From: an uncultured Bacteroidales bacterium
GTDB lineage: Bacteria > Bacteroidota > Bacteroidia > Bacteroidales > Bacteroidaceae
NCBI GenBank assembly: GCA_902763885.1
Contig: CACWTU010000008.1
Coordinates: forward strand, 1-64,000
Direction: 5' to 3'
Length of the DNA: 64,000 nucleotides
Below are positions 18,567 through 61,025 of the stretch, in pieces. A program made the position numbers and the translations under genes. Under the pieces are notes generated by a model. It did no database searches. It was given only the letters and a program-made list of their open reading frames with translations, and was not told the DNA's origin. The stretch's first letter is position 1, and every line of letters starts with the position of its first letter.

Positions 18567-18621
18567 ATAGATTTGTTTAGTTAATCCAAATGAAAAAGGG
18601 TACACCGTTTTTTGAAATCCA

Positions 18622-18690
18622 ATCCCTCCGCCGGCACTGTCCGGATCAGGTTCATAGGGTATAATCTCAGCCCTTGTGGGGCACCCCCTT
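18622..18690 (-). ncRNA. TPP riboswitch (THI element)
   Basis: On the minus strand the conserved THI-box segments are present in order: GGGGTGCC, GGGCTGAGA, ACCCTATGAACCTGATC and CCGGACAGTGCCGGCGGAGGGA. It lies 56 bases upstream of the TonB receptor ATG. Binding of thiamine pyrophosphate should lower expression of the receptor-pnuT operon. A candidate hairpin (GGTGTACC-type) and T run lie between it and the gene. Confidence 0.95.
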
Positions 18691-18702
18691 TCATTCACGG
18701 CG

Positions 18703-46233: not shown

Positions 46234-46656
46234 TCATACAAAATACTCCAATGCTTCGCGATATCCTTCAAATCCTTTTCCCATTATGGTTTTGGAAGCA
46301 TAAAGCGATACGTAAGAGTGGTGGCGGAACTCCTCGCGCTCCGACACATCGCTCAGATGCACCTCAACGGTAGGGATAGAGACCGCTTTCAGGGCATCGA
46401 GTATGGCAACACTGGTATGCGTATATGCGGCAGGGTTGATTACGATGCCGTCAAACACACCGTATGCCTGCTGTATGCAATCCACTATGGCTCCCTCATG
46501 ATTTGACTGAAAGCACTCAACCTGCAGGCCCAGATTGGCGGCAGCATCGTTTATGTAGGTCAGCAAAGCCTTGAAATCACGGTTGCCGTAGATGGACGGC
46601 TCACGCAGTCCCAGCATATTGAGATTGGGCCCGTTGATGACTAGAATCTTTTTCAT
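46234..46656 (-). CDS. aroQ: Type II 3-dehydroquinate dehydratase
   Basis: 140 residues, the usual length. Conserved features: INGPNLNMLGLREPSIYG with the catalytic Tyr, NPAAYTHTS with Asn/His, and EVHLSDVSEREEFRHHS with Glu/His/Arg. Converts 3-dehydroquinate to 3-dehydroshikimate, the third shikimate-pathway step. Last gene of the aro operon, nine bases after pheA. Confidence 0.95.
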   Translation of the reverse strand: MKKILVINGPNLNMLGLREPSIYGNRDFKALLTYINDAAANLGLQVECFQSNHEGAIVDCIQQAYGVFDGIVINPAAYTHTSVAILDALKAVSIPTVEVHLSDVSEREEFRHHSYVSLYASKTIMGKGFEGYREALEYFV

Positions 46657-46665
46657 GCCGTAAAA

Positions 46666-47808
46666 TTATACTATTTCCTGGTATGTGCCAAAGTACTTGA
46701 ACTGCTCGCCGCAGTGGTCAAGCTCGCTTATGAGCGGAGCAAATTTCTTGTCATAGATGGAGAGTTCTATGTCAAAGTAGAACATGAATTCAAAATCGCG
46801 GCCCGGGATGGGGCGGCTCTCCAGCTTGACCAGGTTGGCGCCTGTGGCATTGAATTTACTAAGCACAGAGAACAGCGTTCCAGGCTTGTGTGACATAACC
46901 ATCATGATACTGGTGCGGTTGGCGCCGGGGTATATGCGTGCATTCTTGGCTATGCAGATAAAGCGGGTATGGTTGCTGTCAAAGTTCTGTATATCTTCTG
47001 CCAGTACCTCCATGTTATAGAGGCTGATACAGCTCTTTGATGATATTGAGGCCGATGTCCGGTTGGGGTCTTTGGCCACTTTCTGGGCAGCCATAGCTGT
47101 GTTGTCAAACGGAATTATCTCAACATCCTTGAGCGCAGCCAGGAAATGTGAACACTGGCCTATGGCCTGCGGGTGGGAGTAGATGGTCTTGATATCCTGG
47201 AAGCGGGTTCCCTTGGCTGCCAGCAGCTGGTGGTCAACACGCACGCGGGTGCTGCGTACTATATGCACGTTATATCTTACCAGCAGGTCATAGATTTCAT
47301 TCACGGAACCGGCGGTGGAGTTCTCAATAGGCAGAATGCCATACTCGCACAGACCGTCAGTGACCATTCGGATTACACCCTCAAAGGTGTTGTTGAACAT
47401 TATCTCCGGAACCTCAAACAGCTTCTCGGCAGCTATCTGTGAGTATGCGCCCTCACGCCCTTGGCAGGCTACTACCGCACGCTTGGGGAACGGAGCTGGA
47501 TCGGCGTTGATAAGGTTTGATATGGCTTTGTAGAGTGGGGAGTCCTTCTCCTTGTACATGGCCTCGTAAGCCTTGCTTATGTCAAATATCGAGCGGTATA
47601 GTACGCGCCCGAAATCCTCAAGGTCTTCAGGCAGTTGTTTTGATATGCGTGCCAATACCTCACGTTCACGTGAACTGCTGCTTACCGGGACATCGTGAGT
47701 GCGTTTGTATTCACCTATCTCATTCACCACATTCATACGCTCGGCGAAGAGACGGCATATCTCATCGTCAATGTTGTCAATCTGTTTTCTGTAGTCTGTA
47801 AGGTCCAT
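46666..47808 (-). CDS. pheA: Bifunctional chorismate mutase/prephenate dehydratase (P-protein)
   Basis: About 380 residues from the ATG at 47808. An AroQ-type chorismate mutase domain (about 1-85; DYRKQIDNIDDEICRLFAER) is followed by prephenate dehydratase (about 100-285; GREGAYSQIAAEKLF, LPIENSTAGSVNEIYD, the catalytic Thr in SISSK-type region) and an ACT regulatory domain (about 300-380; SHKPGTLFSVLSKF, LESRPIPGRDFEFMFYFDIE). Makes phenylpyruvate from chorismate; the ACT domain usually gives phenylalanine feedback inhibition. Lies 122 bases after aroA. Confidence 0.93.
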   Translation of the reverse strand: MDLTDYRKQIDNIDDEICRLFAERMNVVNEIGEYKRTHDVPVSSSSREREVLARISKQLPEDLEDFGRVLYRSIFDISKAYEAMYKEKDSPLYKAISNLINADPAPFPKRAVVACQGREGAYSQIAAEKLFEVPEIMFNNTFEGVIRMVTDGLCEYGILPIENSTAGSVNEIYDLLVRYNVHIVRSTRVRVDHQLLAAKGTRFQDIKTIYSHPQAIGQCSHFLAALKDVEIIPFDNTAMAAQKVAKDPNRTSASISSKSCISLYNMEVLAEDIQNFDSNHTRFICIAKNARIYPGANRTSIMMVMSHKPGTLFSVLSKFNATGANLVKLESRPIPGRDFEFMFYFDIELSIYDKKFAPLISELDHCGEQFKYFGTYQEIV

Positions 47809-47930
47809 ATTCTTAACTTTGGCTTTGTTATTTCTCAATTATGTCACTTCGTTCCATGATTTTTGTCGCGACTCGGGATAGCCTAAGCGAGCTTAGTCTC
47901 TCCTCTCGCTGCTCCAAAAATTTTCAATTT

Positions 47931-49196
47931 TCAATTGTCAATTTTTATATTTCCTCCCAATGCATTGAAGTCATCAAAGAAAGCCGGATAAGACTTAGCC
48001 GTACACTCAGCGTCCTTGATGGTAACCCTTATGTTCTTGACCGATGCAAGCACGGTTGCTGCCATAGCCATACGGTGGTCACCTGACGGATCATATGTAA
48101 AACTTCTGGCAGGACCTCCTGTTACTGTAAGGGTGTTGTCAGTGGCGTATGCGCATATGCCTGCTCCTGACAGCAGTTGCAGGATGGATCTTACACGGTC
48201 ACTCTCCTTGATGCGCAGTCTCCTTATGTTGTCAAATACGGTAGTGCCTTGCGCTGTGGAGGCAGCCACCGCCATTATCGGTACAAGGTCAGGAATATCG
48301 GCACAATCAATCTGTGAGGCGGTCAGCCTTGAAGGGCGGGCAGTGACGCTGTTTGCGGTGGCGGATATGTCAGCCCCCATCTGGCGCAGTACATCTACAA
48401 TGTGGCGGTCACCTTGAGCTGAATGCTCGTAGTCCAGTCCTGTGCAGCTTACCTGCTTGGCACCTGATGCGCCTGCTGTAAGCCAGAATGCGGCAGCAGA
48501 CCAATCGCCCTCAACTGTAACCGGTCCGTCAGGTGTGGCGTACCTCTGTCCGCCGGGTATGCGGTAACCATGCCCGGTAGCCTGTACTTCAATACCAAAC
48601 TGTTTAAGTGCGTTCAGAGTAAGACCAATGTATGATGCGCTCTCAAGTTTTCCCGTAATGTTTATGGTGCAGTCTCCGCCGGTAAGCGGGAGAGCCATGA
48701 GCAGTCCTGATATGAACTGTGAGGATACGCCGCCGTCAATAGTGTATGTGCCTGCGGGTAGAGTTCCGTGGCAGGAAAGCGGCATGTGACCGTTCTCTGA
48801 CATGCTTACTCCGTGTGCTGTCATTTCCTCATAGAGGGGTGAGAGCGGGCGTTGCGGCAGACGGCCCTGTCCGGTAAATACGGCATCAGCACCGAGTGCT
48901 GCTGCTACGGGCAGCATGAATCTGAGCGTGGAGCCGCTCTCTCCGCAGTCCAGCAGGCCACCTTTTTTAACCTCGCTTATCGGATCAACATTGAATTTGC
49001 CGTCAGCATAAACAATGTTTGCGCCAAGAGTGTTCAGGCAGGCTGCGGTGGCTTCCATATCGCGGTTTATACCGCGGCAGATTATAGTGCAGGGCTTGCT
49101 GGCCAGGGCGGCACATATAAGCATGCGGTGCGCCACTGATTTTGATGGCGGTACCTGCACGTTCCCTGACGGTGTTCCTGATGCAGAGAGTGTCAT
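47931..49196 (-). CDS. aroA: 3-phosphoshikimate 1-carboxyvinyltransferase (EPSP synthase)
   Basis: 421 residues. N-terminal PPSKSVAHRMLICAALA, GESGSTLRFMLP and the C-terminal LRIKESDRV and GDHRMAMAA are the signature segments of EPSP synthase. Condenses shikimate-3-phosphate with PEP. Overlaps aroB by ATGA, so the two are translationally coupled. Confidence 0.95.
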   Translation of the reverse strand: MTLSASGTPSGNVQVPPSKSVAHRMLICAALASKPCTIICRGINRDMEATAACLNTLGANIVYADGKFNVDPISEVKKGGLLDCGESGSTLRFMLPVAAALGADAVFTGQGRLPQRPLSPLYEEMTAHGVSMSENGHMPLSCHGTLPAGTYTIDGGVSSQFISGLLMALPLTGGDCTINITGKLESASYIGLTLNALKQFGIEVQATGHGYRIPGGQRYATPDGPVTVEGDWSAAAFWLTAGASGAKQVSCTGLDYEHSAQGDRHIVDVLRQMGADISATANSVTARPSRLTASQIDCADIPDLVPIMAVAASTAQGTTVFDNIRRLRIKESDRVRSILQLLSGAGICAYATDNTLTVTGGPARSFTYDPSGDHRMAMAATVLASVKNIRVTIKDAECTAKSYPAFFDDFNALGGNIKIDN

Positions 49197-50248
49197 AATC
49201 CGGCTTTTTTCATCAGTTCAAGAACCTGTGTGGCAGGCATCTTCTCAAGCGTACATCTGCCTATCTCCCGGGGCAGTATGAGGGTGATGTCACCCGCGCT
49301 GCGTTTCTTGTCAGACAGTATTACGCCGTAAAGCTCATCGGCAGAGTAGGGACAGTCAGTATCGAATCCGTAATTCCTTACCACATCGGTTATGGCTTCA
49401 GTAAAATCGGTGAATCCGTAAACTTTAGCCACCTTGGCGGCAATGATCATGCCGCGGGCTACAGCACTGCCGTGGGTAATGGTGAATCCGCTCAGCTTCT
49501 CAATGGCATGTCCGAATGTATGTCCAAAGTTGAGCAGGCCGCGCATACCGCGGTCAAACTCATCGGCCTCAACCACATCGCGTTTTATCTCTATGCAGCG
49601 GGCTATCACCTCCTTAAGGTCAAATGAGCCGGGTGCTGCAACCGTATCAAACAACTTGCGGTCCAGTATGATGCCGTACTTGATAACCTCTGCAAATCCG
49701 TCACGCATTACTGCGGGGTCAAGCGTATTTAAAGTCTCAGTATCCAGGTAAACAAGGGCGGGCTGATGGAAAGCTCCAACCAGATTCTTGCCGGCGCTGA
49801 TATCAACCGCTGTCTTTCCGCCTACTGATGAATCTACGGCAGCCAGCAGTGTGGTGGGTACCTGGATGTATGGGATGCCGCGCAGATATATGGCGGCTGC
49901 GAATCCGGCCATATCACCTACCACGCCGCCGCCCAGTGCCAGCACCATATCCGTACGTGTTATCTGAGCCTTGACCATGCAGTCTATGAATGCGGTCACG
50001 TTATCCAGCGTCTTGCTCTGCTCACCGTTGGCTATCACGTGGCTTACTGTCCTGAAACCTGCTGCCTCAAGTGAATCCGTTACGGTCTTTCCATAGAGCG
50101 GGAACACCTTGTCATCACTCAGGATAGCTATGGTGCAGGGCTTGAAACGCTCTTTAAGAGCCTGGCCTATTTTGCTCAGGCTGCCTTTGGTGAGCAGTAT
50201 GTCATACGTGCCGGAGGCATGGACTGTGATTAGGGTGGGGGTAGCCAT
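49193..50248 (-). CDS. aroB: 3-dehydroquinate synthase
   Basis: 351 residues with the NAD-binding GGGVVGDMAGFAAAIYLRG, the substrate/metal segment LPTTLLAAVDSSVGGKTAVD (QVPTTLLA here) and zinc ligands in RGLLNFGHTFGHAIE. Converts DAHP to 3-dehydroquinate, the second shikimate step. Two bases after tyrA and overlapping aroA. Confidence 0.95.
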   Translation of the reverse strand: MATPTLITVHASGTYDILLTKGSLSKIGQALKERFKPCTIAILSDDKVFPLYGKTVTDSLEAAGFRTVSHVIANGEQSKTLDNVTAFIDCMVKAQITRTDMVLALGGGVVGDMAGFAAAIYLRGIPYIQVPTTLLAAVDSSVGGKTAVDISAGKNLVGAFHQPALVYLDTETLNTLDPAVMRDGFAEVIKYGIILDRKLFDTVAAPGSFDLKEVIARCIEIKRDVVEADEFDRGMRGLLNFGHTFGHAIEKLSGFTITHGSAVARGMIIAAKVAKVYGFTDFTEAITDVVRNYGFDTDCPYSADELYGVILSDKKRSAGDITLILPREIGRCTLEKMPATQVLELMKKAGL

Positions 50249-50250
50249 AT

Positions 50251-51081
50251 CTATTTTTCTGAAAGTTCCTTGGCAATGCGTCCGTCACGCAGCAGCGCGC
50301 ACAATGTCCGGGCATCATCGGCCTCCATGGCATTGGCGTACTGCGTGAGGTTGTCAATCAGGGTATGTATCTCTCGCAGAAGGTTGTCCTTGTTTTCAAG
50401 GAACAGCTCTGTCCACATATTCTCATTAAGCCAGGCTACGCGCGTGAGGTCGCGAAAACTGCCTGCGCTGTAGCCCTTATGCTGCTGGGCCGATGGGCTC
50501 TTGACGTAGGCGTTTGATACCACATGCGCCAGCTGTGACGTGAATGCTATCATGCTGTCATGCTGCTCAGGAGTAGTGAAAACCACGCGCTTGAGTTGCA
50601 TTGGCTCCAATAAACTCTTGATGTGATCCAGCAGCTGGATATCATCGTGAGTGGGCGGGATGATTATCATTGATGCGTTCTGGAACATCGTGGCGCGTGA
50701 GTTCTTGTAGCCTGACAGATGTGTCCCGGCCATAGGATGTCCGCCGGCGTATGTGAATCCGTACTTGGCGGCGGCCTTCATTCCGCACTCCACTATCTTG
50801 CGCTTGGTTCCGCAGTCATCAATCACTACCGTACTATTGGATATCTCAGGAGCGTGCTCTTCAATCCATTTGCAGGCGGCATCAGGGGTGACTGCTATGT
50901 GTATCAAGTCACATTTCTTTATGTTCTTGGCGTCAAGTACGGCATCAAGAGTGCCCTCAAGCTCGGCAAAACGGCTTATTGACTCGTTCAGGTCAAAACC
51001 ATAGACCGTCCAGCCGGCCTCCTTGTATGTCTTGGCAAGTGAGCCGCCTATCAATCCTAATCCTACTACTCCTACAATCAT
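50251..51081 (-). CDS. tyrA: Prephenate dehydrogenase
   Basis: 276 residues. Begins with the Rossmann motif VGVVGLGLIGGSLAK, then VIDDCGTKR, GGHPMAGTHLSG and the helical dimerisation half with TPEQHDSMIAFTSQLAHVVSNAY. Oxidises prephenate to 4-hydroxyphenylpyruvate for tyrosine. There is no fused chorismate mutase; that activity is in pheA downstream. It lies 70 bases after aroF; the gap contains AT-rich TTTTCAATT repeats and a TTTTTGTCGCGA sequence that recurs between aroA and pheA. Confidence 0.93.
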   Translation of the reverse strand: MIVGVVGLGLIGGSLAKTYKEAGWTVYGFDLNESISRFAELEGTLDAVLDAKNIKKCDLIHIAVTPDAACKWIEEHAPEISNSTVVIDDCGTKRKIVECGMKAAAKYGFTYAGGHPMAGTHLSGYKNSRATMFQNASMIIIPPTHDDIQLLDHIKSLLEPMQLKRVVFTTPEQHDSMIAFTSQLAHVVSNAYVKSPSAQQHKGYSAGSFRDLTRVAWLNENMWTELFLENKDNLLREIHTLIDNLTQYANAMEADDARTLCALLRDGRIAKELSEK

Positions 51082-51151: not shown

Positions 51152-52162
51152 TCATACGATCTCTTTAAGGGCCTTAACCTTCTTTGCCACTTCATCAAAC
51201 TGTGTCGGAGTGAGTGACTGAGCACCGTCACACAGGGCGTGCTCCGGGTCATTGTGTACCTCTATGATAAGACCGTCTGCACCGGCTGCAACAGCTGCCA
51301 GACTCATGGACGGCACCAGACGTGACTTACCTGTAGCGTGGCTGGGGTCAACAATTATGGGCAGGTGTGAAAGCTCTTTTACAACAGGTATGGCAGAGAG
51401 GTCAAGCACGTTACGGGTGTATGTATCGTAGCTGCGGATACCGCGCTCACACAGAATGATGTTCTCATTGCCGCCAGCCATAATGTATTCGGCGCTCATG
51501 AGCCACTCCTTGATAGTGCTGGAGAGACCGCGCTTGAGCAGTATGGGCTTGCGGGTACGGCCCAGAGTTTTAAGCAGTTCAAAGTTCTGCATGTTACGCG
51601 CACCCACCTGAATAAGGTCAACATCCTCAAACAGATCCAGATGTTTCTCACTCATTATCTCAGTTACTATAGGCAGGCCTGTAGCCTTGCGTGCCTTGCG
51701 CAGCAGTTCCAGACCATCGGCACCCATTCCCTGGAAATCATACGGAGATGTTCTGGGCTTGAATGCACCGCCGCGCAGCAGTGTCGCGCCCGATGCCTTA
51801 ACGGCCTTGGCAATCTCTGTTATCTGCTGCTCAGATTCAACAGAACACGGACCGGCTATCATTGCAAAGTTGCCGCCACCTATCTTGACCTTGTTTTCAC
51901 CTTCACCAATCTCAACTATAGTATCGGCGGGGTGGAAACGGCGGTTGGCGCATTTGAACGGTTCGCTGATGCGGGTAACGCTCTCGATGATGTCAAGACC
52001 GCTCAGCAGGTCAGGGTCTATGCGGCTGGTATCGCCAATCAGACCTATCACTGTCTGGAACTGACCTTCAGATATGTGAACATCTACTCCCTGGCCTTTG
52101 ATCCAGTTTATAAGGTTTTTCTTTTGAGTCTCTGAGACTCCTGCTTTAAGTACTGCTATCAT
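51152..52162 (-). CDS. aroF: 3-deoxy-7-phosphoheptulonate (DAHP) synthase, type I-beta
   Basis: 336 residues. The N-terminal 70 residues form a ferredoxin-like regulatory domain, as in Thermotoga-type enzymes. The catalytic barrel starts at [15 protein letters not shown], then [41 protein letters not shown] and [10 protein letters not shown]. It commits PEP and erythrose-4-phosphate to the shikimate pathway. First structural gene of the operon, directly behind the leader-peptide attenuator. Confidence 0.95.
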
Positions 52163-52198
52163 ATTGTTTTGTTTTTATTATCGTCAGTTTTACATATC

Positions 52199-52230
52199 AA
52201 AAAAAGAACCCGAATCATTGATCCGGGCTC
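52199..52230 (-). terminator. Attenuator terminator of the aro operon
   Basis: On the minus strand GAGCCCGGATCA pairs with TGATTCGGGTTC (12 bp with two G-U pairs) and is followed by seven T. It stands between the leader peptide and aroF, so in its folded form it would stop transcription before the operon. Its first half (GCCCGG) can pair instead with CCGGGT at the end of the leader-peptide frame, giving a competing anti-terminator. Confidence 0.85.
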
Positions 52231-52263
52231 TCTGTTATTTATCATTTGTAGGCATACAACAAA

Positions 52264-52323
52264 TTACCCGGCATATTGTCTGGTAAACCAAAAGTAATAG
52301 AAGTATGCGTTAGTTGATCTCAT
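52264..52323 (-). CDS. Aromatic-rich leader peptide (attenuation sensor)
   Basis: A 19-residue frame, ATG to TAA, containing YFYYFWF plus one more Tyr: eight aromatic residues in 19. It begins about 9 bases after a TACCTTTG -7 element and ends in CCGGGTAA, which contains the proposed anti-terminator strand. Ribosomes slowed at the Tyr/Phe/Trp codons would leave that strand free to pair with the terminator; normal translation to the stop would cover it. This is the logic of classic trp/phe/his attenuators, here reading all three aromatic amino acids. Confidence 0.88.
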   Translation of the reverse strand: MRSTNAYFYYFWFTRQYAG

Positions 52324-52331
52324 ATCGGCCG

Positions 52332-52364
52332 CAAAGGTATGTAACATTTCAAGTCATTGTTACA
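52332..52364 (-). promoter_or_regulatory. aro operon -7 element with overlapping dyad
   Basis: Minus strand TACCTTTG (52339-52332) fits the -7 consensus; no good -33 box is seen 19-21 bases upstream. Directly next to it, 52340-52364 forms a perfect 7-bp dyad TGTAACA-N11-TGTTACA, placed where a repressor or activator would contact the promoter. Confidence 0.55.
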
Positions 52365-55913: not shown

Positions 55914-55973
55914 CGCAAAGGGGACGGTTCTGTTCGCGTTAGGGACGGTTCTGTTCGCGAACAGAACCGTCCC
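55914..55973. repeat. Palindromic repeat, one and a half copies, supplying the NUDIX C-terminus
   Basis: A half copy (GGGACGGTTCTGTTCGCG, 55921-55938) is followed by a perfect 32-bp palindrome (55942-55973, centre TTCGCGAA). On the minus strand the NUDIX reading frame runs through the palindrome and stops at TAA (55941-55939) in the junction. Confidence 0.9.
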
Positions 55974-56478
55974 CGGTGAGAAAGAAGCGGCGGAACTCGG
56001 ATTCAAAGTTTGGTGTAAGGATGTCCTTTCCAAGGGCATCCTTTATTTCTTGCATGGTCCAGAAACGGCCGCCGTCAAGTTCATCGGCACTGGGATTTAC
56101 AGGGCCGTCATAGACGGTCTTGAAAACGTTGACCAGCTCTTTTTCAACCTTGCTTTCAAATACGTAGTGTCCCATAGAGACGGGATTCTCAACGCTGATG
56201 CCCAGCTCTTCCATTACCTCACGCCTGAAAGCCTGCTCAACGGTCTCTCCGTATGAGATGTGGCCTCCTACGGCGGTGTCCCACTTGCCGGGCTGGATGG
56301 GCTTCCAGTCAGGGCGGCGCTGCAGATAGAGTTCTCCCTTGGAGTTGAACAGGTGCAGATGTACTACGGGATGCAGAACCTTACGGCCGTCATGGGCCTC
56401 ACCGCGCAGTATCTTGCCCAACACGTTTCCATCCTCATCAACTATGGGAAAGAGTTCGTTGTTGTTATCAGAGTTCAT
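55939..56478 (-). CDS. NUDIX hydrolase with repeat-derived C-terminal tail
   Basis: About 179 residues from the ATG at 56478, which overlaps the nitrilase stop by 11 bases. The Nudix box is GGHISYGETVEQAFRREVMEELG. The lead-in LFPIVDEDGNVLGKILRGEAH is that of IPP-isomerase-like/YfcD NUDIX enzymes, which hydrolyse nucleoside or isoprenoid diphosphates. The last 12 residues (TGDGSVREQNRP) are encoded by the palindromic repeat and are identical to the tail of the SprT-like protein at 60351. Confidence 0.88.
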   Translation of the reverse strand: MNSDNNNELFPIVDEDGNVLGKILRGEAHDGRKVLHPVVHLHLFNSKGELYLQRRPDWKPIQPGKWDTAVGGHISYGETVEQAFRREVMEELGISVENPVSMGHYVFESKVEKELVNVFKTVYDGPVNPSADELDGGRFWTMQEIKDALGKDILTPNFESEFRRFFLTGDGSVREQNRP

Positions 56479-57223
56479 TCTTGTCAGCGTCTTGAAGTAC
56501 GGGGAATTTGGCGCGGAAGCGTGCAAGACGCTCCATGTCAAGGTCTGCAGAGAGCATCTGCGGACGTTCATCGGTCTGGATGAGGGTCTCTCCGTAGGGA
56601 GTGATGATGGCACTGTGACCGGGGTAGAAACCAAAATCGTCACTGCCTGCGCGGTTTACTCCGATGGCATAGCACTGGTTCTCAATGGCGCGGGCGCGGA
56701 GTAGGGTGTCCCAGGCCAGAATGCGCTTATCGGGCCAGTTGGCGGGATAGAAAACGGCATCGTAGTCATCACGGTTGCGGCTGAATGTGGGGAACCGCAG
56801 GTCATAGCAGATGAGCAACAGTATTCTCAGACCTCTGAAACTGACCACAACACGGTCTGAGCCGGCTGTAAAATGCTCAGCCTCACCGGAGTATGTAAAT
56901 AAATGGTGCTTGTCATAACAGGTCATTGTGCCGTCAGGCATGGCAAAGCAGAGACGGTTATAAATGCTGCCGTTTTCTGTTACGGGCAGTGTACCGCAGA
57001 TAGCAGCATTAAGTTTTGATGCCTTGTCCTGCAGCCAGTTAACGATAGGGCCGTCCATAGTCTGGACCACGTCTGCGGGGTCAATATATTGTCCGGTAGC
57101 GAACATCTCCGGTAAAACATATATGTCTGCACCGCATCCGCCACCTATTATCTGATCCAGATCTGTAAGGTTTTGTTTCCAGTTACCTTTCTCCGGGGCA
57201 TTTTGTACTATTGAGATTTTCAT
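56468..57223 (-). CDS. Nitrilase-family amidohydrolase (omega-amidase-like)
   Basis: 251 residues. Catalytic triad regions: Glu in LPEMFATG, Lys in YDKHHLFTY, Cys in LLICYDLRFP. Length and motifs fit the YafV/NIT2 omega-amidase branch, which removes alpha-ketoglutaramate or related amides. Co-translated with the NUDIX gene; the VanX-like gene lies 15 bases upstream. Confidence 0.88.
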   Translation of the reverse strand: MKISIVQNAPEKGNWKQNLTDLDQIIGGGCGADIYVLPEMFATGQYIDPADVVQTMDGPIVNWLQDKASKLNAAICGTLPVTENGSIYNRLCFAMPDGTMTCYDKHHLFTYSGEAEHFTAGSDRVVVSFRGLRILLLICYDLRFPTFSRNRDDYDAVFYPANWPDKRILAWDTLLRARAIENQCYAIGVNRAGSDDFGFYPGHSAIITPYGETLIQTDERPQMLSADLDMERLARFRAKFPVLQDADKNEL

Positions 57224-60308: not shown

Positions 60309-60350
60309 TGCGATTTATTTGCTACCTTTATACCCTGTTGTTGCAATTTG

Positions 60351-61025
60351 ATGAAGGCAGATATAGCATACGTTCAGGAAAAGTTCCGGGAGTTTAACCG
60401 CCGGATGTTTGACGGTAAGCTGTCTGAACCTCCTATGGCTGTTACCAATGCCAAGACATACCTGGGTGTATGTGCGTTCCGCAAGCACCGTAAGTGGAAC
60501 GGAAAGCTGGAGTATTCAGATTTCAAGATACGTATCAGCAAACGATTTGACTTACCTCAGGAGGAGATTGATGACACAATCATCCACGAGATGATCCACT
60601 ACTGGATAGGTCTTTATAGTCCGGCCGATATGCCCGGCCACAGTCCATTATTCCGCAAGATGATGGCCGATATCAATCAGCGTTTCGGCCGTCATATCCG
60701 TGTGTCACATCGTCTCAGCGCCGAGCAGCAGGACCTGGCATTTGATAATCGGCCCAAGAAACATATAGTGGCCAGCGTAGTGCTGAAAGACGGCCGCACC
60801 GGCATTAAGGTAATACCCTGCTTGGAGCGTCACATCCGCCGTTATCGCCGAGGCATGATGGCCAGCGGCAAGGTCAGTTCCATAGAGTTCTACCAAACCA
60901 CAGACCCTTTCTTCAACCGATTCCCCAGTTCATCGGCCTTCAAAGTCTATTTCCTGAATCCAGCTGTCATAGCAGAACATCTCCGCACCGGGGACGGTTC
61001 TGTTCGCGAACAGAACCGTCCCTAG
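60351..61025 (+). CDS. SprT-like zinc metalloprotein with repeat-derived C-terminal tail
   Basis: About 224 residues from the ATG at 60351. The zinc motif is HEMIHYW (about residues 80-86) with a downstream His in PGHSPLFRKMM, as in SprT/Spartan-type proteases. The C-terminal third is basic. The last residues TGDGSVREQNRP come from a palindromic repeat and match those of the NUDIX protein at 55939. DNA-protein crosslink repair is known for eukaryotic relatives; bacterial function is unclear. Confidence 0.8.
   Translation: MKADIAYVQEKFREFNRRMFDGKLSEPPMAVTNAKTYLGVCAFRKHRKWNGKLEYSDFKIRISKRFDLPQEEIDDTIIHEMIHYWIGLYSPADMPGHSPLFRKMMADINQRFGRHIRVSHRLSAEQQDLAFDNRPKKHIVASVVLKDGRTGIKVIPCLERHIRRYRRGMMASGKVSSIEFYQTTDPFFNRFPSSSAFKVYFLNPAVIAEHLRTGDGSVREQNRP
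60991..61022. repeat. Perfect 32-bp palindrome at the SprT-like stop codon
   Basis: GGGACGGTTCTGTTCG and its complement meet without a loop (centre TTCGCGAA). It is directly followed by the TAG stop of the SprT-like gene. Identical in sequence to the palindrome at 55942-55973. Confidence 0.92.

Follow-up and report, generated by a model that had tools for sequence, protein, structure and literature searches.

Leader-peptide attenuation is a textbook proteobacterial mechanism. In E. coli, the pheA and trp leaders contain control codons, the 1:2, 2:3 and 3:4 pairings and a terminator, with pheL being Phe-rich, and the ilv and thr leaders are multivalent, each reading several amino acids of one operon. 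A 2010 survey presented a hisS case in bacilli, and its authors knew of no earlier demonstration in bacteria other than Proteobacteria and Actinobacteria (PMC2965389). A candidate upstream frame before aroF, uORFC-13-1, has been described in Acholeplasma and unnamed environmental sequences, with 24 examples that contain at least one Phe residue (PMC8632094). An earlier note on the DNA studied here, made from the sequence alone, called such systems little described in Bacteroidota. This is roughly right, although a study of Flavobacterium psychrophilum already reports 'strong clues' that leader peptides attenuate amino-acid operons (PMC9723704). In the openly readable literature, we found nothing closer than that sentence and uORFC-13-1; an earlier prediction in subscription papers is possible.

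Here we describe a leader before a Bacteroidota aroF operon. With a probability that we put at roughly 0.9, it is a transcription attenuator of the classical, ribosome-mediated kind, sensing tRNA-Phe and tRNA-Tyr in their charged form. The mechanism would thus be a known one, at work in a broad and apparently little-described family.

Leader, terminator and operon in the window

The window, by which we mean the whole stretch of DNA analysed (64,000 nucleotides), carries the leader on its minus strand, where the short frame, aromatic run and terminal motif given in the earlier note were all confirmed (Table 1). We compared this frame with all 1255 frames that begin with ATG and encode 8-45 aa on either strand of the window, and it alone has at least six aromatics within eight residues, bar its own in-frame extension from an ATG upstream of the promoter box. 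The terminator had been described as a 12-bp hairpin with seven T; the seven T stand, and the fold gives a longer stem. Behind the leader, the gene order aroF-tyrA-aroB-aroA-pheA-aroQ agrees with the NCBIfam names.

Table 1. Positions in the window of the leader, its RNA elements and the genes behind it
Feature	Position	Strand	Detail
Leader ORF MRSTNAYFYYFWFTRQYAG*	52323-52264	minus	19 codons, 8 aromatic, YFYYFWF, ending in CCGGGTAA; ATG AGA TCA ACT AAC GCA TAC TTC TAT TAC TTT TGG TTT ACC AGA CAA TAT GCC GGG TAA
Control codons 7-13	52285..52305	minus	TAC TTC TAT TAC TTT TGG TTT
Putative promoter box TACCTTTG	52332..52339	minus	TAnnTTTG -7 type, 8 nt 5' of leader ATG
Strand 1, GCATAC	52303..52308	minus	partner GTATGC (52257-52252)
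Strand 2 (CCGGGTAATTTGTTGT), antiterminator partner	52256..52271	minus	from the fold; element also tested class-wide
Strand 3 (ATAACAGAGAGCCCGG), partner of strand 2	52223..52238	minus	3' part forms the 5' arm of the terminator
Intrinsic terminator, 14-bp hairpin and seven T	52199..52233	minus	hairpin 52233-52203; seven T overlap or come after its end, last at 52199
aroF, DAHP synthase (PRK08673 type)	51152..52162	minus	first gene controlled; start at 52162
tyrA, prephenate dehydrogenase	50251..51081	minus	NCBIfam, score below curated cut-off
aroB	49193..50248	minus	NCBIfam
aroA	47931..49196	minus	NCBIfam
pheA, chorismate mutase fused to prephenate dehydratase	46666..47838	minus	NCBIfam, score below curated cut-off
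aroQ, type II 3-dehydroquinate dehydratase	46234..46656	minus	NCBIfam

Transcription usually starts a few bases past the promoter box; if it does so here, the leader would be nearly leaderless. Boxes of this -7 type are described in PMC9723704, where the bacterial group of the window is also said to lack Shine-Dalgarno sequences. In Bacteroides thetaiotaomicron, 5' UTRs shorter than 10 nt are reported to make up about 3.7% of the total (PMC7366714). No Shine-Dalgarno sequence was found at the window leader. Given this, and a start codon so close to the box, translation of the leader is assumed in what follows.

Folding of 52163-52340, a check proposed in the earlier note, recovers the terminator and the strand 1 pairing, with z = -2.17 and 4/200 shuffles folding equally well. 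A z-score of this size is weak alone; the case rests on comparative evidence. Rfam returned no family at gathering score at the leader site, nor in 20 related loci.

Three further observations concern the window and its genome. A TPP riboswitch lies elsewhere in the window (18606-18698, minus strand; Rfam RF00059, 63.8 bits). The ORFs at 55939-56643 (minus) and 60348-61025 (plus) are different, yet both end in TGDGSVREQNRP, which might reflect a short repeat, dispersed in the genome, that overlaps their 3' ends. A second DAHP synthase gene lies outside the operon (G000:C18); it is apparently a chorismate mutase fusion and adjoins a helicase-like gene (recQ-like, by eye).

Conservation and distribution of the leader

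The earlier note suggested looking for frames rich in Tyr, Phe and Trp, followed by a terminator, before the DAHP synthase genes of relatives. In the genus, this search succeeds: the leader is present at 11/11 aroF loci of the window type, as located by protein search, and a pattern search of 37 genomes gave 22 leader copies in 21 genomes, every one directly before aroF. Of the 16 genomes that gave no pattern match, ten were covered by the protein search, and these gave no window-type aroF either.

The aromatic codons on which the original proposal was built are conserved in these leaders. Codons 7-13 are aromatic in 154/154 codons across the 22 copies, a conservation that is partly selected because the search pattern, with up to three mismatches allowed, itself spans codons 6-16. 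The variants are YFYYFWF, YYFYFWF and YFFYFYF, such that Tyr, Phe and Trp replace only each other (Y/F, F/Y, W/Y), while codons 2-5 are variable. In 6/22 copies the stop codon has shifted upstream of CCGGGTAA and the motif is still present, indicating that it is kept as RNA. The promoter box is of the same type throughout and lies 8-9 nt before the ATG in 21/22 copies; in the other (L122), the distance is 39 nt. The pairing of strand 1 with GTATGC is near-invariant. As these key pairs hardly vary within the genus, they show little covariation and are uninformative in that respect.

Two of the genus loci have peculiarities of their own. L122 (genome G278) has an additional 5' UTR hairpin (GGTGCCTGAA..TTCAGGCACC) between the promoter box and the leader ATG. 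Genome G302, with 5% contamination, has two leader-aroF copies (L115 and L135), reflecting either a duplication or a mixed assembly.

We then considered the family as a whole. DAHP synthases of the window type occur at 36 listed places in 301 family genomes; 30 of these were retrieved, 19 of them from other genera. At 18 of those 19 loci, no leader was found in the 400 nt upstream of aroF. The sole exception (L095, genome G218) has MRFSFAYYGYYFYFTCRQTG, with a terminator and no Trp, and is seen in a scan of 400 nt and overlooked in one of 260 nt. In another family, genome G492 has the same aroF behind a leader that reads MRTKNNAYFYFYYYFARLR, again with no Trp.

An RNA model built from the genus leader also matched leaders in other families, where they preceded prephenate dehydratase and, in two cases, aminotransferase genes; pheA upstream regions were therefore surveyed. 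Over 393 genomes, this model (R1) gave matches in 106 at E ≤ 0.1. Among its 29 loci besides the window, 23 were readable, with an aromatic leader in 13 and none in 10. Because this tally is mixed, we did not use it as a leader count and relied instead on a scan for ORF, terminator and pairing, in which a leader was an ATG frame with at least five aromatics in eight residues. We take the order and class to be Bacteroidales and Bacteroidia, the close named Bacteroidota aroF records being Bacteroidaceae. A pheA match was found in 100/218 order genomes (101 places, of which 100 were scanned and one, a 62-residue fragment, was left out), and pheA regions were scanned in 31 of the 44 same-class genomes that have pheA and in 38/127 genomes of other classes. 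Related genomes are counted separately in all of the order and class counts.

In the order, 84/100 pheA upstream regions have a leader, which is aromatic in 8/8 residues in 40 of the 84 and is followed by a terminator in 79. For the other orders of the class, the corresponding numbers are 25/31 and 25/25. On the opposite strand, the same scan gave 6/100 and 2/31, and dinucleotide shuffles reached the aromatic threshold in 72/1940 (order) and 22/620 (class), with a terminator in 0 and 1, respectively. These controls rule out a chance origin of the aromatic leaders. In the other classes of the phylum, 3/38 pheA regions have a leader, compared to 2/38 on the opposite strand. A promoter box lies within 120 nt of the ATG in 77 of the 112 pheA leaders, mostly 15-32 nt before it.

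Leaders are absent at 16/100 pheA genes in the order and 6/31 in the rest of the class. In two of the order exceptions (the window genome and G492), pheA lies inside a leader-bearing aroF operon; another three have less than 120 nt of upstream DNA, and in three more a same-strand frame ends at most 100 nt away. Five of the six class exceptions have a same-strand frame that ends within 30 nt, compared to 1/84 leader-bearing order genes (within 100 nt). Within the class as sampled, leader attenuation appears to be the customary way of controlling the synthesis of Phe and Tyr.

Amino acids probably read by the leader

To describe composition, we took the best 8-residue stretch of each of the 112 pheA leaders (84 from the order, 25 from the class and 3 from beyond). 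At least two Phe and at least two Tyr are present in 99; Tyr is absent in 5 and Phe in none. Trp occurs in 17. In the genus, codon 12 is Trp (TGG) in 19/22 copies and Tyr in the other three. The Trp codon is thus not consistently conserved in either sample, and of the earlier claim that Tyr, Phe and Trp are read together, the coupling of Tyr and Phe codons stands and the reading of Trp is unproven.

The trp operon provides a useful comparison. Eight trp regions of the genus were retrieved, one of which ends before trpB, and all seven that reach upstream of trpB have a leader of the SFWWWQNSGY type. FWWW-type leaders of this kind occur in the window's own genome (L155, G000:C4:5000-12000) and in L156 and L158-L162. 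In the order, 12/30 trpB upstream regions have a frame with at least two Trp in eight residues (LWWW, FWWW, YWWW or YWW), eight of them with a terminator. With Phe and Tyr at pheA versus Trp at trpB, it follows that the leader codons track the operon product.

A true pan-aromatic sensor, with which a shortage of Trp alone would also open the operon, has in our estimate a little less than an even chance. The operon makes chorismate, which is needed for Trp too, and TGG, present in most genus copies, lies inside the zone in which a stalled ribosome would leave strand 2 free. However, it is a single codon that Tyr can replace, Trp is missing from the G492 and G218 leaders and from the best stretch in 95/112 pheA leaders, and the trp operon has a Trp leader of its own. 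We regard Trp as a one-codon, lineage-specific addition, and a single codon may give a weak Trp response in this lineage. We would therefore replace 'pan-aromatic' by Phe/Tyr, to which certain lineages have added Trp.

The same comparisons bear on nascent-peptide arrest, of which TnaC and ErmCL are examples. Here the peptide itself would stall the ribosome on a small-molecule signal. Residues A6, F13, T14 and R15 are identical in 22/22 genus copies, as such arrest would predict, though all four fall inside the search pattern, and the predicted RNA pairing involves some of the invariant nucleotides. Class-wide, the flanks and length of the leaders vary widely and the aromatics trade places, and before trpB the leaders switch to WWW. 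These data make peptide-specific arrest very improbable.

Antiterminator pairing, proposed mechanism and related systems

The 5' arm of the terminator has a pairing partner in the CCGGGT close to the leader stop. The earlier note had proposed just this pairing (CCGGGT with GCCCGG), and it is borne out both by the fold, in which strand 2 pairs with the 5' arm, and by tests across the class. Strand 2 is a copy of the terminator's 3' arm, placed after the last aromatic codon and ahead of the terminator. In 94/107 leaders, its pairing with the 5' arm of its own terminator is significant relative to 200 shuffles (P ≤ 0.05), with 13/107 missing this threshold, and strand 2 starts 5 to 16 nt past the last aromatic codon in 92/107 (median, 10 nt).

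We assessed partner specificity by swapping arms between leaders, allowing own and foreign arms each to pick their best site in the 40 nt past the last aromatic codon. For all 107 leaders, own arms averaged -13.0 kcal/mol, compared to -8.8 for permuted arms, and none of 5000 permutations fell below -9.6. Similar results were obtained for the order only (79 leaders; -13.4 versus -9.1, lowest permutation -10.3) and for the other orders of the class (25 leaders; -12.3 versus -8.5, lowest permutation -10.4). A variant in which strand 2 was picked by its own arm (101/107 leaders) gave -13.4 versus -8.2, with -9.1 the lowest of 5000; as this choice favours own pairs, the unbiased version was run on all 107. 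Own pairs beat permuted partners, indicating that both strands changed together.

The geometry in the window fits a stall-controlled switch, when modelled with an assumed ribosome front edge of 12 nt. A ribosome on codon 13, the last aromatic codon, would end at nt 51 and free strand 2, which begins at nt 53; one at the stop codon would reach nt 72 and cover it. Predicted energies are -18.4 kcal/mol for the antiterminator and -19.5 kcal/mol for the terminator, and the terminator prevails in the full-length folds wherever the ribosome is modelled to stall. The switch must therefore be kinetic. If the ribosome is left out, the 1:2 hairpin and the terminator both appear in the full-length fold, but most of the antiterminator persists when the RNA is folded up to a point just short of the 3' arm. 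Termination of untranslated RNA, which is usual for such attenuators, is thus seen in the longer fold and not borne out by the shorter one.

Alternatively, the aromatic frame could be incidental and the element simply a 5' terminator, or an RNA such as a riboswitch or T-box that binds a metabolite or tRNA. This would account for a terminator that is real and conserved, but it is scarcely credible, given the lack of Rfam matches at this site and in 20 related loci, the excess of aromatic frames with terminators far above shuffles, and an antiterminator that keeps its place relative to the last aromatic codon.

The idea of a leader-peptide attenuator is thus supported by its anatomy, by conservation in relatives and by partner-specific pairing across the class; from these we infer transcription and translation of the leader, stalling and a response to amino acids. 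RNA polymerase would start a few bases before the leader ATG, with a ribosome following. When Phe or Tyr is short, the ribosome would stall in codons 7-13 with its front edge short of CCGGGU, and this free strand would pair with the terminator's 5' arm, so that the operon is transcribed. When both are plentiful, the ribosome would arrive at the stop codon and cover CCGGGU, the terminator would form, and transcription would end before aroF.

Where the operon came from is a separate matter. The window aroF is 63-78% identical to 80 listed loci, mostly from Clostridia, with Treponema and others. Relatives of tyrA, aroB and aroA lie in 65, 61 and 55 of the 80 loci, respectively, contig ends included, which suggests that the operon was acquired by horizontal transfer. 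Three of the 80 loci are from Bacteroidaceae, and none of these has a leader. All but one of the 80, where the upstream sequence was too short, were scanned for leaders. Aromatic leaders were found at 59/79 of these clostridial-type loci (including L006-L083), compared to 3/79 on the opposite strand; 49/59 have a terminator and 53/59 have two Phe and two Tyr. A Shine-Dalgarno-like word, loosely defined, is present in 42/59 and a GCTGC-type motif in 26/59, both counted without a control. Pairing was significant in 13/49 for the terminator 5' arm alone, in 23/49 for the whole hairpin and in 17/49 for the 1:2 pairing. Because these tests are weaker, we do not claim the Bacteroidia mechanism in detail for the clostridial-type leaders. 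In 20 of the clostridial-type loci, Rfam gave no family at gathering score before aroF except one tRNA. In some of the leaders, the aromatic codons are followed by a recurring AGTAAAAGTGATTTGTGCTGC-like stretch that is partly complementary to TACTTTTACTTT codons.

By eye, the window leader is nearer to Bacteroidia pheA leaders (e.g. ASFYYFYFTR, G033) than to clostridial-type ones. One tentative account, which we consider rather unlikely, is that a single old Phe/Tyr module, acting as an OR-gate on two tRNA pools and found before pheA in Bacteroidia and before aroF in Clostridia and other phyla, has been rearranged between operons, such that one Bacteroidales genus, having acquired an aro operon of clostridial type, now runs it from a Bacteroidia-style leader. 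For the likeness of leaders across phyla, convergence is equally possible as shared ancestry.

Leader attenuation in these bacteria would bear on the coupling of translation and transcription, and the leader family would fill a missing entry in RNA annotation. Like the E. coli pheA and trp leaders, the window leader is a short ORF with control codons, the same pairings and a terminator before the operon, a likeness of anatomy. Unlike pheL, it mixes Phe and Tyr, with Trp optional, has no Shine-Dalgarno sequence and a start codon near the promoter box, and would govern the common pathway together with both the Tyr and Phe branches. It resembles the ilv and thr leaders in that one leader reads several amino acids, with branched-chain and Thr/Ile codons there and aromatic codons here. 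With uORFC-13-1, as described in PMC8632094, it shares an upstream ORF and a terminator before aroF, and Phe has been suggested as the signal in that case; the leaders found here differ in having five to eight aromatics in eight residues, a mix of Phe and Tyr, and a defined antiterminator. The F. psychrophilum candidates reported in PMC9723704 belong to the same phylum and likewise lie before amino-acid operons, and they may overlap the leaders described here.
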